32,509 bases of DNA from Lachnospiraceae bacterium. Lineage in GTDB: Bacteria; Bacillota; Clostridia; Lachnospirales; Lachnospiraceae. The position numbers and the translations under genes were made by a program. Where the stretch lies: NCBI GenBank assembly GCA_017521195.1, contig JAFXGP010000120.1, forward strand, positions 1-32,509, in the 5' to 3' direction. Shown piece after piece: positions 780 through 7,644 of the stretch; the first letter of the stretch is position 1, and every line of letters begins with the position of its first letter. Under the pieces are notes generated by a model. It worked only from the letters and a program-made list of their open reading frames with translations. It made no database searches and was not told where the DNA came from.

Positions 780-1349
780 TCATTTAATTTCCGAAAAGAA
801 ATCATACAGAGAGTCCTGTGATAAAATCCCTCTTTTTAAGTTTTTAGGTAGTTCGCCACGTTCATCGCATTCGTAATCTTGAAGCCATAATCCACTTTGA
901 TAGTACTCCTCCAAAACATTAATCTTATCTTGAAATATTTGAGACGTACGAAGCAATCCCGGATTTTTAAAGTTATCTTCTAACAACTCATCAAAATATC
1001 GTTCCATTTTTATGATTCGCTGAAGTCTTTCATTATCTGCATAGGACCATTGGTATACTTTTAGGTCAACTTTGTTGTTTTTTATGATAACACCATCCGC
1101 TTCCAAGCGCATCTTTTGGCAACCAACTCCACCAAAGGCATAATTTTTTGCTAAGTTTCCCTTTGCATTCACGACTTTATAACAGGGATACTTATCTCCA
1201 TCCGGATTTTCATGCAGAATATTTCCGACGATGCGTGCAAAGTTTTTGTTTCCTAAAAACTCTGCAATCTGACCGTAAGTTACCACTTTCCCATTAGGAA
1301 TTGCAATCAAATATTCATAAACTATCTGTTTATCAATCTTTCTGTCCAT
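780..1349 (-). CDS. O6-alkylguanine-DNA alkyltransferase-like domain fused to DUF4298
   Basis: Residues 1-95 match the DNA-binding domain of MGMT/Ogt and alkyltransferase-like proteins: a winged-helix region with Val-Thr-Tyr-Gly-Gln-Ile, the arginine-finger context Ala-Arg-Ile-Val-Gly (38-42), and PCYKVV at 55-60. Cys56 is in the position of the alkyl-accepting cysteine, but the usual PCHR reads PCYK; ATL proteins instead have Trp there. Residues 105-189 look like DUF4298, ending with the Gly-Glu-Leu-Pro-Lys-x-Leu-Lys-Arg-Gly-x-Leu-Ser motif. I chose the ATG at 1349 because GGAG lies 9 bases upstream; an in-frame TTG at 1364 would put that site inside the gene. The N-terminal half may repair or bind alkylated DNA; the role of DUF4298 is unknown. 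The family is fairly certain, the activity is not. Confidence 0.75.
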   Translation of the reverse strand: MDRKIDKQIVYEYLIAIPNGKVVTYGQIAEFLGNKNFARIVGNILHENPDGDKYPCYKVVNAKGNLAKNYAFGGVGCQKMRLEADGVIIKNNKVDLKVYQWSYADNERLQRIIKMERYFDELLEDNFKNPGLLRTSQIFQDKINVLEEYYQSGLWLQDYECDERGELPKNLKRGILSQDSLYDFFSEIK

Positions 1350-1366
1350 TACCAATAACTCCAAAC

Positions 1367-3251: not shown

Positions 3252-3740
3252 CTACGTATACTCCTTCCGATATGTTTCATTTAACATCCTGCGTCCTTTT
3301 TGTAATCGCATTTTAACAGCAGATGTAGATTTACCTATGAATCCTGCAATTTCTTTCACACTGTATTCCTCTACATAGTACAAAATCAGAACCACTCTGA
3401 ATCATTCAGGTAATGTCATAAGAGCATCTATGATATGGCTGTCATTTGCATCTTTTGTTAATTCCATGATTTCTTCCACATCCACTACCGGATGATTTTT
3501 CCTATATCGCAATACATCTCTGCATTTGTTCGTTGCCACCTTTATTAACCATGCTTTTTCATGTTCCCCGTTTTCAAACTTAGGAGCTTTTTGTAAATAT
3601 TTAATCATGGTTTCCTGCACAACATCCTCTGCATCACTTGCATTCCCCAGTGTAATAAGACATAAACGGAATAGCATATTTCCATATGTATGCACAACTT
3701 CTTCTATACTATCAGTCGGCCGTACCGAAGTATTTCTCAT
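3252..3740 (-). pseudogene. ECF-type RNA polymerase sigma factor, interrupted by an in-frame TGA
   Basis: Residues 1-112 contain sigma-70 region 2: a core-binding helix, then DAEDVVQETMIKYLQKAP, and AWLIKVATNKCRDVLRYRKN. They end at a TGA (3402-3404) directly after the conserved Leu-Pro-Glu that opens region 4. The same frame continues without shift for 49 codons to a TAG at 3252 and encodes a good region 4 (FRVVLILYYVEEYSVKEIAG then KSTSAVKMRLQKGRRML). The total of 162 residues plus the stop codon equals a normal ECF sigma length. The stop probably replaces an Arg codon (CGA or AGA) or Lys. Without region 4 the protein should not recognise a -35 element. The start has GGAGG upstream, and a candidate promoter lies at 3762-3791. 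It could be a recent null mutation, a readthrough site or a sequencing error. Confidence 0.8.
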
Positions 3741-3810: not shown

Positions 3811-3841
3811 TAAAAATAGAAAAGGCGAGGTATTCCCCGCC
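3811..3841 (-). terminator. intrinsic terminator after the M23 hydrolase gene
   Basis: On the minus strand GGCGGGG-AATA-CCTCGCC (7-bp stem, one mismatch) is followed by TTTTCTATTTTT. It lies 50 bp past the stop of the gene ending at 3892 and separates the BlaI operon from the sigma/anti-sigma genes. Confidence 0.8.
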
Positions 3842-3891
3842 TAATGCTATTTTTATACTATCACTTTTATTAACAAATAAAGTAACTATCC

Positions 3892-5103
3892 TTAATCACT
3901 TACATACTCCAATGGATCCACATAAGTTCCATTCTTAATGATTCCAAAATGCAAATGATTCCCACTGGAATATCCTGTCGATCCAACTTTAGCAATCATT
4001 TCGCCTTGCTCCACATTATCTCCCACGGACACTAAAAGCAAGGAACAATGCATGTATACTGTAGACATTCCATTTCCATGAGCAATTACTATATAATTAC
4101 CTGCAGAATTACTATGCGTAGCTGTCGTAACCATACCGGATGCGGATGCCAAAATAGCAGTACCATAAGATGCCGTTAAATCTATTCCTTTATGATTCGT
4201 AGAAGCTCCTGGTACCGGCTGTGGACGAGGCCCAAAATAACTGCTGATTCGATTATAATCCGGACAGGGCCAAATAAATCCACTAATGGTTCCTGTATAT
4301 CGATCTGGATTTGCAGCTTTCGCAATCTCCTCTTCTATTTCATTCAGCAACTTTTCCTGTTGTTCTAACTCCTCTTCATAATCCTTACGGTTTACAAGTG
4401 CATCACTAATTTCGCCGTTTTTTTCTATTAACTCCCCTTTTTTCCGATTAACAATATTATCTATCTTTTCCTTCTGAGTTCTCAATTCAGCCTGCATTAG
4501 TTCAAGATTATTAAGTTCTGCCTCCAAAACGTTTTCTTTCCTTGCAATCTCATCCTTTATGGCAGTATACTCATCCAACATATTGCGGTCATATGTATAT
4601 ACTGCTTCCATAAAAGTTGCCTGTTTTAACATTTCTGCCATGCTTTCTAATCCAATAAATATTTCTAATATATTAGATTTACCATTTTCATACATATACC
4701 GAATACGTAATTTCATAGCTTCGTATTGTTGTTCGCATGCTTCCTTTGCCTGTTCCAGCGAAATTCTTGTTTCTTCAATATCAACAATCTTTTCCTCTAT
4801 TTTTCTTTCAAAAGCCGTTATTTCATTTGTTAATATATTTATCTGACCATCCAATGATTTTATGTAGCCTTGAATATCATTTTTCTCTATTGTAAGATTA
4901 TCAATATCTTCCTGAACCTCGCTAATAGAAGATTTCAATCCTTCAATCATCTCCAGTGCCTGTTGCCGTTCCATTTCTAATTGCTCTATTTCTTCATTTA
5001 CAGAAGCATAAACAGACAATCTCATTCCCACAATCATAATTACAATTAATGGAAAAATAATAACAAACTTTATATATTTTAATAAGAACTGTTCCTTTTC
5101 CAT
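3892..5103 (-). CDS. EnvC/CwlO-like murein hydrolase with coiled coil and intact M23 domain
   Basis: A 403-residue protein. Residues 11-33 form a membrane segment (signal anchor or signal peptide). Residues 35-260 are heptad-rich, Glu/Lys/Gln/Leu-dominated coiled coil. Residues 275-400 form an M23 (LytM) zinc endopeptidase domain: His304 and Asp308 (NHKGID), His352 (YMHC), and His383/His385 (NHLHFG). All metal and catalytic positions of active M23 enzymes are present, so it probably cuts peptidoglycan cross-bridges outside the membrane. The coiled coil may hold it inactive until a partner binds, as known for EnvC and PcsB types. Only 3 bases separate it from the upstream BlaR1-like gene, and its ribosome binding site is weak (GAGAT), suggesting translational coupling. 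It is the last gene of the BlaI-controlled operon. Confidence 0.85.
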   Translation of the reverse strand: MEKEQFLLKYIKFVIIFPLIVIMIVGMRLSVYASVNEEIEQLEMERQQALEMIEGLKSSISEVQEDIDNLTIEKNDIQGYIKSLDGQINILTNEITAFERKIEEKIVDIEETRISLEQAKEACEQQYEAMKLRIRYMYENGKSNILEIFIGLESMAEMLKQATFMEAVYTYDRNMLDEYTAIKDEIARKENVLEAELNNLELMQAELRTQKEKIDNIVNRKKGELIEKNGEISDALVNRKDYEEELEQQEKLLNEIEEEIAKAANPDRYTGTISGFIWPCPDYNRISSYFGPRPQPVPGASTNHKGIDLTASYGTAILASASGMVTTATHSNSAGNYIVIAHGNGMSTVYMHCSLLLVSVGDNVEQGEMIAKVGSTGYSSGNHLHFGIIKNGTYVDPLEYVSD

Positions 5104-5106
5104 ATT

Positions 5107-7188
5107 TTATTTCTTAATCTCAAATTCTGCAAAATAGATGGCTGTATCAAAATCCCCGGTACTACAAAAATCCATAATATTCTTTCCAATTCGATATTTC
5201 CCACTCGGAACAGCTCCATATAACCATTCCCAATTTACTATCCATTCACGAGTATCATTCATGGGAATCATCCAAGCCTCAGATGTCCAGCCAATTTCAC
5301 CCTCTATAACATACGGCATTTCCTTCCACCCATACTCTCTTGTCCAGGTTTCTAAAATGTACCAACTACCCGTCTGTAATTCACCTGTTGGTTCTCCTCC
5401 GGATTGCGTACATCTGATTGTTACACCTGTCGATGTGATATCCTCTGCAGTGAGTGTAATCCCCCATGTTTCCTCGAATACCATAAATTCCGGTGGTAAA
5501 TAAGATGACAACATTTTTTCTTGTTCCGATAATTCTAACCATTTTAATGTAGCATTGCATAATTCAGATTTCTTATATTCTTTCCCATTATATGTAATGG
5601 TCTCTTCCAAAAAATCTGTTTCAAAATAAGGCATAGGATTTACTGCTTCTCCATCAACTTTTACAGATATGGATAGAAAAGGACCTGTTGCATTTCCGGT
5701 TTTTCCCATTACTCCTATAATCTCACCCGCCTTTACACTTGCTCCTTTTGGCACCTTACTTCCATCCAAATGTCCATAAGTTACTTCTTCACCTGTTGCG
5801 GTAACTAAGACAATATAGCTGCCTAGTGTATTATCAAATCCCACATCAGTGATATCACCATCCGTCACAGCATAAATAGAATCCCCTTGATTACCTGCTA
5901 TGCCAATATAATCTATCATCTTCTTTTCGCCGGTAATTGGGTGTATGCGTTCGCCAAATTCATTAGACATGATTGTACTCACTGTAGGCCAAACATATTT
6001 GGTTTCTTCTAGAATTATTTCTTCATCTGCCTCTGATGTACTCTCTCCTACAACATCTACAGTCTCATCCACGTCATTAAATACTTCTTCCTTTTCATTA
6101 ACAGCCTCTACTTCTTCCGATGTACTTTCATTCATCGATTCTCCAAAGGTGCATCCGATACATACTACAGATAATGCTATCGTTAATACCAATGCAATTC
6201 TACTTGTCTTTTTCCTTTTCACAATAACCTCAATCCTTTTCTTCATTTCTCTCTTGCCTCCAGTTGCAGTAGTGGAATTCAAAAAGACTACTGATGTAAT
6301 ATCATTTCCCTTGGAAGCTTTTGATACAACATCCAAAAGTGTTTGGCCATAAACAGTTCTCTTACTTTTTCCAAGGCGTCTGATAGTACCTTCATCACAA
6401 GCCAGTTCACTATCTTTCCTTGAAACAGAAGCTGCCAGCCAAACCAAGGGATTGTACCAATACAGCGCAACACATAAATTCCGTATCATGGACCATATAT
6501 GATCTCCATGAGCATAATGAACATATTCATGAAGCAGAATCATATGCTGCTGCTCACTTGACAAGTTTATATTATTTCCTACTATGATTACCGGTGAAAA
6601 ACCTCCGTATAAACAAGCTCCATAATAATCTTCTATCTTATATACAGGAATCTTATCATTGTATGTATTTATATATTTTCTTTTGTCTTTGAATGCCTTA
6701 TAAAAACAGATGTTGCTAACTAATATCATCACAAAACATATCATTACACCTGTAAAGTATACGACCTTAGCAACTACTGATAGTATCATTCTGCTGTCAG
6801 TTTTATTTTCGTTATTATCTTCTACAACAGCTTGCAACTTTTGATTCTCTTTTGTTTCTGCATAGGAATAATTCTCTAAATCATCTACTACTGTATGATT
6901 TGTTTCATTATTTATATTTTTATCTACAGTACCCAAGTCTTCATGCAGCAAATTGTCTTCTGTAGCTTTCTCCAAGCTATTACTTATCGCTTCTGCGCAG
7001 GATTCAATAAAGTTCATAATATGAAACTGAGATTCAAAACCCGGAACCGGTACCAAAAGCTTGATTACCACCAGTAGCCATAATGAATATTTCAAACATG
7101 CACTAATTTTATTTTCGAACAGAGTACCTATAAGCAACACAAAAATGATTACAAGTGATGATGTAATAATATGATTAATCATCATTTT
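5107..7188 (-). CDS. BlaR1-like M56 metalloprotease sensor with degenerate M23 domain and Ig-like C-terminus
   Basis: A 693-residue multi-domain membrane protein. Membrane helices lie near residues 5-24, 31-47, 138-158 and 331-346. The M56 zinc protease motif is HEYVH (220-224) with the downstream ELACDE (261-266), as in BlaR1/MecR1, which cleave the paired BlaI repressor. After an acidic Ser/Thr linker (about 350-397) comes an M23/LytM fold (about 399-520). It keeps YGHL (471-474), but the HxxxD motif reads MIDYIGI (424-430) and the HxH motif reads PFLSISV (503-509), so the metal ligands are lost. Residues 575-693 resemble the Ig-like domain of clostridial lipoproteins, ending in Gly-x-Tyr-Arg-Ile. 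BlaR1 proper has a penicillin-binding sensor; none is seen here. I chose ATG 7188 (GGGAGG 9 bases upstream, overlapping the blaI end) over ATG 7236. The sensing role is inferred. Confidence 0.85.
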   Translation of the reverse strand, partial: KMMINHIITSSLVIIFVLLIGTLFENKISACLKYSLWLLVVIKLLVPVPGFESQFHIMNFIESCAEAISNSLEKATEDNLLHEDLGTVDKNINNETNHTVVDDLENYSYAETKENQKLQAVVEDNNENKTDSRMILSVVAKVVYFTGVMICFVMILVSNICFYKAFKDKRKYINTYNDKIPVYKIEDYYGACLYGGFSPVIIVGNNINLSSEQQHMILLHEYVHYAHGDHIWSMIRNLCVALYWYNPLVWLAASVSRKDSELACDEGTIRRLGKSKRTVYGQTLLDVVSKASKGNDITSVVFLNSTTATGGKREMKKRIEVIVKRKKTSRIALVLTIALSVVCIGCTFGESMNESTSEEVEAVNEKEEVFNDVDETVDVVGESTSEADEEIILEETKYVWPTVSTIMSNEFGERIHPITGEKKMIDYIGIAGNQGDSIYAVTDGDITDVGFDNTLGSYIVLVTATGEEVTYGHLDGSKVPKGASVKAGEIIGVMGKTGNATGPFLSISVKVDGEAVNPMPYFETDFLEETITYNGKEYKKSELCNATLKWLELSEQEKMLSSYLPPEFMVFEETWGITLTAEDITSTGVTIRCTQSGGEPTGELQTGSWYILETWTREYGWKEMPYVIEGEIGWTSEAWMIPMNDTREWIVNWEWLYGAVPSGKYRIGKNIMDFCSTGDFDTAIYFAEFEIKK

Positions 7189-7561
7189 CCAACGCCTCCC
7201 CCAGAATCCGGTACAATTCTTCCATATCCGCTTCACTTATATTGTTATTTCTAATCAAGGTACTCATCATCATACTAACCGAACCTTTATACACTCGTTC
7301 TAATAAGCTTTCCGTTTCCGTAATTGCCGCATCATCCCGATTTACCTTTGGATAATACTGCTTTGCCTTTCCACCATCTTCGTAATAAAGAATTCCTTTA
7401 TCAACCATTCTACTAAGTAAAGTTGTTACTGTACTTTTGCTCCAGCCCGGTTCTACTTTTAATTCATGATATAACTGCATAAGTGTTTTCGGATGTAGCT
7501 CCCACAATTTTTCCATAATAATCCATTCACTTGGCTGTAACATGATTTTATTGGTATCCAT
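7175..7561 (-). CDS. BlaI/MecI/CopY-family transcriptional repressor
   Basis: A 128-residue penicillinase-repressor family protein. The N-terminal winged helix-turn-helix includes SEWIIMEKLWEL and the recognition-helix region WSKSTVTTLLSRMVDKG. The C-terminal helices (about 85-128) correspond to the dimerisation part where BlaR1-type proteases cut. The 3' end overlaps the BlaR1-like gene by 14 bases, the usual pairing. I chose the ATG at 7561 because GAGGG is 9 bases upstream; the ATG at 7570 abuts that site. Two operator-like dyads flank its promoter, so autorepression of the whole three-gene operon is likely. The target signal is unknown, but the operon content points to the cell wall rather than a beta-lactamase. 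Confidence 0.9.
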   Translation of the reverse strand: MDTNKIMLQPSEWIIMEKLWELHPKTLMQLYHELKVEPGWSKSTVTTLLSRMVDKGILYYEDGGKAKQYYPKVNRDDAAITETESLLERVYKGSVSMMMSTLIRNNNISEADMEELYRILGEALENDD

Positions 7562-7584
7562 ATCTATCATCCCTCTTTCTCATT

Positions 7585-7602
7585 GGTTTACTATAGTCGA
7601 CC
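7585..7602 (-). promoter_or_regulatory. BlaI operator dyad, downstream copy
   Basis: GGTTTACTATAGTCGACC is an imperfect dyad (GGTTTAC with GTCGACC). It matches the copy at 7627-7644 in 16 of 18 positions and lies 42 bp away, about four helical turns. It sits just downstream of the predicted transcription start and would block elongation or RNA polymerase entry. Confidence 0.7.
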
Positions 7603-7613
7603 TCATTACCCAC

Positions 7614-7642
7614 AGTATATTATTTAGGTTTACTATTGTCAA
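7614..7642 (-). promoter_or_regulatory. sigma-A promoter of the BlaI / BlaR1-like / M23 operon
   Basis: Perfect -35 TTGACA (7637-7642), a 17-bp spacer, and -10 TATACT (7614-7619). The -35 lies inside the upstream operator dyad. The promoter is strong, so the operon must rely on repression to stay off. Confidence 0.85.
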
Positions 7643-7644
7643 CC
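7627..7644 (-). promoter_or_regulatory. BlaI operator dyad, copy over the -35
   Basis: GGTTTACTATTGTCAACC is a dyad with 6 of 7 matching half-site positions (GGTTTAC / GTCAACC). It covers the -35 box. With the copy at 7585-7602 it brackets the promoter, as in bla and mec operons. Confidence 0.75.

Follow-up and report, generated by a model that had tools for sequence, protein, structure and literature searches.

Antibiotic sensing is what BlaR1-type proteins are mainly known for, and the locus described here, in which a membrane protease of this kind carries a cell-wall hydrolase fold in its outer part, raises the question of what such a sensor would read and what it would control. It lies on a 32,509-nucleotide contig (JAFXGP010000120.1; this whole stretch is the window hereafter) of a Lachnospiraceae MAG (GCA_017521195.1) that measures 2.54 Mb and is 82% complete; its two sister MAGs, also Lachnospiraceae, come from the gut of water buffalo. 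The original prediction held that a BlaR1-like protease had exchanged its penicillin-binding domain for a dead M23 peptidase and an Ig-like domain, and that the circuit may read cell-wall structure rather than antibiotics.

Operon organization and sensor architecture

Three minus-strand genes, a BlaI/MecI/CopY-family repressor (7175..7561), a 692-aa M56 protein (5107..7185) and a 403-aa coiled-coil M23 endopeptidase (3892..5103), follow one another in that order and look like a single transcription unit. The ATG of the second gene, at 7185, overlaps the repressor stop, and the third gene starts 3 nt past the sensor stop codon. A promoter-like TTGACA-N17-TATACT (7614..7642, minus strand) agrees with the consensus at 11 of 12 positions and tops the 20 matches found across the region, where shuffled sequences are expected to give 19.0. 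Terminator-like hairpins lie 3' of the third gene (3823..3842, minus strand; three in the region against a shuffle mean of 1.4) and on the other flank of the operon (7698-7661, minus strand). The repressor, whose listed open reading frame begins at 7570, matches Pfam Penicillinase_R at 6.8e-27, as expected for the paired BlaI that had been predicted, and is hit by the NCBIfam BlaI, MecI and CopY models, all under their cut-offs. The third gene, absent from the original prediction, encodes an M23 hydrolase with intact motifs (HKGID...HLH) and matches Pfam Peptidase_M23 (8.7e-32) and CC_PcsB (7.9e-07).

The sensor protein comprises an M56 domain (residues 3-321), a TM-like segment (330-348), a linker (346-392), a pseudo-M23 domain (393-523) and a Big_14 region (524-692). 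Peptidase_M56 (PF05569, 5.4e-38, residues 3-321) and Peptidase_M23 (7.3e-19, residues 427-517) both match above their curated cut-offs. The predicted HEYVH zinc site occupies residues 219-223 (6517..6531, minus strand), and, judging from an alignment of 60 M56 proteins that includes this one, all nine residues invariant across the set are present, in keeping with the predicted M56 protease. Pfam finds no penicillin-binding (Transpeptidase, PF00905) domain in the sensor, as had been claimed, and model NF000326 reaches 103 bits where its cut-off demands 400. For the Ig-like domain predicted at the C-terminus (5107..5616, minus strand), a Big_14 match (PF20251, 1.2e-14, residues 576-677) stands at 54.6 bits against a cut-off of 27, but the predicted structure of this part is poor (block pLDDT 33-65) and the Pfam hit is the one source of the label; the best E-value in a sequence search for a solved Big_14 structure was 0.26.

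Small proteins that have no M56 domain contain stretches with 45-70% identity to the Big_14 part (L037 219-1025; L095 2348-3481; L041 4173-4949; L042 3457-4875). Separately, a lipobox-like CIGC ends the fourth TM-like segment (6151-6162, minus strand; residues 342-345). By a script pattern, 13 of the 60 M56 proteins, this sensor included, carry such a motif ending in Cys, and some M56 outer domains may be processed or lipidated.

Upstream of the repressor lie two operator-like sites, GGTTGACAATAGTAAACC (7627..7644, minus strand), which overlaps the -35 box, and GGTCGACTATAGTAAACC (7585..7602, minus strand), 42 bp from the first. Both are copies of the 18-bp near-palindrome GGTTGACNAYAGTAAACC, for which the mean over 100 shuffles was 0.00. 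At no more than one mismatch, eight distinct sites are present in five of seven congeneric genomes, each upstream of a BlaI of this kind: two apiece in the window's MAG (G000), G003 and G005, one apiece in G004 and G006, and none in G001 and G002. All three two-copy genomes share the 42-bp spacing. The promoter-like layout is identical in G003 and G005 and reads TTGACT-N17-TATACT in G006 and TTGACA-N17-TAAAAT in G004. From this arrangement we infer that BlaI binds the two sites. Since sites at this threshold stand only upstream of BlaI, the circuit seems, from the sequence, to regulate its own expression along with that of its third gene.

These data bear on whether the operon still serves the response to beta-lactams, with damage to the wall as an indirect sign of the drug. 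BlaI-M56 pairs classically regulate beta-lactamases, and a dipeptide derived from the wall can elicit a response of BlaI (PMC3305447); however, the sensor is devoid of a penicillin-binding domain, a beta-lactamase is absent from the three genes, and within the window's MAG (82% complete) sites with at most one mismatch were found at this operon only. We regard such a role as very improbable. At two mismatches, the same genome gave three further hits versus one for a reversed-pattern control, and the circuit may have another target among them.

The pseudo-M23 domain and its relatives

The pseudo-M23 (LytM) domain spans 5617..6009 on the minus strand. When it is aligned with nine other M23 domains, the histidine of HxxxD is replaced by I424 and its Asp by G428, HxH reads F503-L-S505, and the YxH histidine is retained as H472. 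Four of the five catalytic-site positions, whose zinc-binding role we take from the LytM literature, are thus replaced, and the predicted loss of both motifs is upheld. The predicted structure (block pLDDT 82-98, mostly 92-98) has an M23 fold and matches solved M23 structures, as the prediction required. The domain therefore has the fold of an M23 peptidase with neither catalytic motif, and its incomplete metal ligands on a LytM fold are those of a degenerate LytM factor.

EnvC, NlpD, DipM and Csd2, degenerate LytM factors that likewise combine an M23 fold with the loss of the metal site, are among its top structural matches. They are envelope proteins that act on proteins, whereas the domain in the window is the C-terminal part of a repressor-paired membrane protease. 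Ranked by Z, DipM-LytM (21.7; 1.4 Å) and EnvC-LytM (21.3; 1.8 Å) come first, tied with the active ShyA (21.0); ranked by Foldseek E-value, the active enzymes NMB0315 and ShyA lead and the regulators stand behind. The structure alignment took in 42 of 80 viral M23 loci, and a search of viral contigs for the pseudo-M23 gave two weak hits.

Within the genus, the full domain is found in three of seven genomes at 259-264 bits, the next best match scoring 86. Besides the window's, these are two MAGs, G005 (contig L093) and G004 (contig L094), in which this fusion is also present, with the same residues at the replaced positions. A chance or assembly join is excluded as the source of the fusion, given its recurrence in these two other assemblies. 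Homologues with intact metal ligands had been named as grounds for refuting the prediction, and on this point the outcome is mixed. The three orthologues found share the losses, but an M56-M23 protein of apparently separate origin, from Subdoligranulum (below), retains its ligands.

Nei-Gojobori-type dN/dS ratios, computed with our own script, were compared along the sensor. Between the window and G005 they are 0.20 for M56, 1.10 for the linker, 0.24 for the pseudo-M23, 0.14 for residues 524-575 and 0.15 for Big_14 (576-692), and 0.06 for the catalytic M23 domain encoded by the third gene. Between G005 and G004 the values are 0.22 (M56), 0.65 (linker) and 0.24 (pseudo-M23). Between the window and G004 they are 0.23 (M56) and 1.07 (linker), the pseudo-M23 being incomputable at saturated synonymous sites. 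By these ratios the pseudo-M23 is under constraint, weaker than that on the live M23 of the third gene, and free decay is ruled out by a value of 0.24 beside a neutral linker. Taken with the residue losses, the sequences indicate that the domain is catalytically dead, occupies the sensor position of BlaR1 and is kept by selection.

It could nonetheless be a leftover spacer, with the real sensing done by Big_14 or by X, a domain of about 240 aa that has no Pfam name and occurs in seven of 299 genomes of the family (near threshold in three). The loss of four of five catalytic-site positions, the very long stem branch of the pseudo-M23 clade (1.68 changes per column), the stronger constraint on Big_14 and the presence of X or Big_14 beside the pseudo-M23 in all three intact copies are compatible with a passenger role. 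Such a role is nevertheless quite improbable given the ratio of 0.24 next to a neutral linker and the identity of the replaced positions in all three copies. The architectures point the same way. G004 is M56-X-pseudoM23, G005 is M56-X-pseudoM23-Big_14 and the window is M56-pseudoM23-Big_14, so that G004 is without Big_14, the window is without X, and the pseudo-M23 is the only outer domain common to all three.

The nearest out-group protein found, in G028 of another genus (BlaI 76% identical), is M56-X. This comparison suggests that M23 joined an M56-X protein, that Big_14 came next and that X was lost in the window's species. The pseudo-M23 tree groups the window with G004 (95/88), at odds with the simplest order of gain and loss, and a loss of Big_14 in G004 is therefore also possible. 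In G003, BlaI is followed by a remnant consisting of the end of the pseudo-M23 (ILS at HxH) and Big_14, the protease having been lost; G006 has BlaI and a 270-aa M56 frame with no sensor, and G001 and G002 have neither the pseudo-M23 nor operator-like sites. These losses and absences indicate that the system is dispensable. At the G003 locus (L038 1771-2863), BlaI and two operator-like sites have outlasted the M56 part of the next gene, and the locus sits between two sigma-factor genes, as judged from translations read by eye.

A recent copying of the operon's own hydrolase was considered as the origin of the domain and rejected, because that enzyme ranks 68 of 72 in similarity and groups elsewhere, in a tree where placement of the pseudo-M23 is unsure owing to its long stem. 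The G005 operon hydrolase ranks 58. Nor is there support for dead M56-M23 proteins as a wide family. Among 397 family genomes, with up to 10 candidates scored in each and the genus represented by G000 and G001, the best non-self pseudo-M23 match reached 98 bits against 264, and all 29 non-self M23 matches inspected among the matches listed keep their motifs. A scan of genome contigs, using two peptide patterns specific to the pseudo-M23 and reaching its near relatives, returned two loci from 138 candidate stretches, those of the two sister MAGs.

M56 proteins at large and a second M56-M23 locus

The sample of M56 proteins combined picked rows of a longer list with loci on hand and gave 63 distinct proteins, 60 of which were aligned and scanned; L011, L117 and L138, being short or truncated, were excluded, and L110 was kept though cut by the locus end. 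A Pfam scan found the Transpeptidase domain in four of the 60, leaving 56, among them the proteins of the window, G004 and G005, without it. An M56 protein with no penicillin-binding domain is the rule in this sample. The predicted swap of a penicillin-binding domain for the present outer part accordingly finds no support, and the proteins of G028, G004 and G005 carry another outer domain, X. A homologue in M. tuberculosis is likewise described as having no equivalent of the BlaR1 sensor domain (PMC9834060). Among the 60, M23 and DUF4825 each occur in three proteins (for M23, those of the window, G004 and G005), and single proteins carry RCC1, LytR_cpsA_psr, PepSY and others. A further BlaI-M56 pair with an RCC1-repeat outer domain was noted at G000:C57 (L004 / L151), with WD40_RLD and RCC1 hits and a BlaI-like open reading frame recognized by eye.

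The operon shares with the BlaR1/MecR1-BlaI/MecI systems (the blaZ and mecA circuits) a repressor gene that overlaps the M56 gene, an HExxH...E protease, paired promoter dyads and an outer domain with relatives among enzymes that act on the wall or inactivate drugs. It differs in that the outer part is a dead M23 domain plus Big_14, and the third gene encodes an M23 hydrolase rather than a beta-lactamase or PBP2a. M56-M23 combinations as such are already on record: a review lists M56 among the catalytic domains that accompany M23, which jointly make up under 1% of all hits (PMC9662197). Its M23-M56 entry does not mention a dead M23, BlaI or an adjacent M23 hydrolase. A literature search for BlaI circuits with M23 sensors found none among the matches listed.

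In a tblastn search of the sensor against plasmids, a record of Subdoligranulum variabile (OY725877.1; L261) ranked second among the best 20 of 3,465 and was the only such case among those 20. It resembles the window in gene order (BlaI, M56-coiled coil-M23, M23 hydrolase), in having an M23 outer part with an M23 hydrolase as the next gene, and in the paired TTGACA/TGTCAA dyads seen by eye in its promoter region; the N-terminal part of M56 lies in a different frame in the record. Unlike in the window, the M23 motifs of the sensor are intact, and its M23 domain falls elsewhere in the tree. In that tree, built on few columns with long branches, the sensor and hydrolase M23 domains of Subdoligranulum group as sisters (100/99) outside the pseudo-M23 clade, and the fusion, which belongs to a different family from the window's, apparently arose separately. 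Among the matches listed from 391 genomes of the class, most with up to four candidates scored, none spanned both domains, and two guessed families (38 and 32 genomes, strict limits), which may be the wrong ones, yielded no further fusions.

The association with a hydrolase gene also extends beyond the window. In G005 the sensor contig ends within the start of an M23 gene, and a second contig that shares its last 141 bases exactly continues to an M23 protein 83% identical to that of the window over the 184 residues compared. In G004 the remaining 1.2 kb of the contig contains no M23 gene, and by eye a terminator and an opposite-strand gene follow. Hydrolase output is therefore not universal. 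A separate M23 gene adjoins three of the four M56-M23 loci (window, G005, G004 and Subdoligranulum) versus one of 71 other M56 loci, in a count of 75 loci with flanks of mostly about 2.5 kb, some of which are congeneric or near-copies and thus not independent. Because G005 and the window are congeneric, the link amounts to two lineages, one of them, Subdoligranulum, represented by a single record.

A putative wall-sensing circuit and its surroundings

We propose, as a moderately probable reading, an autoregulated cell-envelope circuit whose non-catalytic M23 receptor gates both BlaI proteolysis and hydrolase output. The groove of the dead M23 domain would hold a ligand without cutting it, and a change in its occupancy would signal to the M56 protease. 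Once activated, the protease would cleave BlaI, by analogy with S. aureus, where BlaR1 cleaves BlaI directly and has a sensor related to class D beta-lactamases (PMC9834060). The operon and its hydrolase would then stay on until the wall signal disappears.

For the ligand we rank first a peptidoglycan stem or cross-link peptide, the presumed substrate of the output enzyme, although our confidence in it falls slightly short of even. Where the function of a degenerate LytM domain is known (EnvC, NlpD and DipM), the domain binds proteins and not wall peptides (PMC9662197, PMC10336132), so that a partner hydrolase has to be taken as seriously as peptidoglycan; we rank second, with some reserve, a wall hydrolase that docks into the groove. 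Some other ligand is unlikely.

Docking may also define the whole system, the groove serving as an EnvC- or DipM-like dock for a wall hydrolase, so that the circuit gauges or controls the enzyme rather than the wall. The highest Z scores, to the inactive DipM-LytM and EnvC-LytM though tied with active ShyA, agree with this, as do the candidate partner gene within the same operon, the docking of autolysins in the degenerate LytM groove of DipM (PMC10336132; also PMC9662197) and the heterodimer of inactive Csd2 with active Csd1 (PMC5053510). However, Csd1 and Csd2 are reported to make contact through their helical domains, not their LytM domains (PMC5053510), and the intact ligands of the Subdoligranulum sensor are a better fit to substrate binding. 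G004, moreover, has the domain without the operon hydrolase, so that the operon's own enzyme is unlikely to be the only partner, though other M23 proteins are encoded in that genome. On balance we consider a circuit built on docking rather unlikely.

Under the preferred receptor circuit, sensor and output would be relatives. BlaR1 offers a parallel, in that its outer domain is related to class D serine beta-lactamases and the gene it controls, BlaZ, encodes a serine beta-lactamase (of class A). At least two M23-M56 fusions, in the window's genus and in Subdoligranulum, stand beside an M23 hydrolase, and we tentatively suggest a closed loop of wall homeostasis in which a copy of the hydrolase fold, rendered non-catalytic in the window's genus, senses the substrate or partner and sets the level of the enzyme through BlaI. 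If this is true, M56 circuits would follow a design rule, that the sensor is a crippled relative of the output enzyme, and BlaR1 with beta-lactamase would be its most familiar instance. If the dead M23 binds muropeptides, wall structure would be read out transcriptionally through a pseudoenzyme receptor. The operon is a concrete candidate for a wall-sensing M56 circuit, with a sensor domain, operator-like sites and a likely output enzyme.

Finally, two features of the window lie outside the operon. Past its end, an ECF sigma factor gene (3300-3740, minus strand) is interrupted by an in-frame stop and leaves a 112-aa open reading frame, and its homologue in G005 (L095 1739-2239) is open along its full length; such a gene also occurs on L037 and L095, two of the loci with Big_14-like regions. 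Further along, a single open reading frame (780-1364, minus strand) joins a 6-O-methylguanine-methyltransferase DNA-binding domain to DUF4298.
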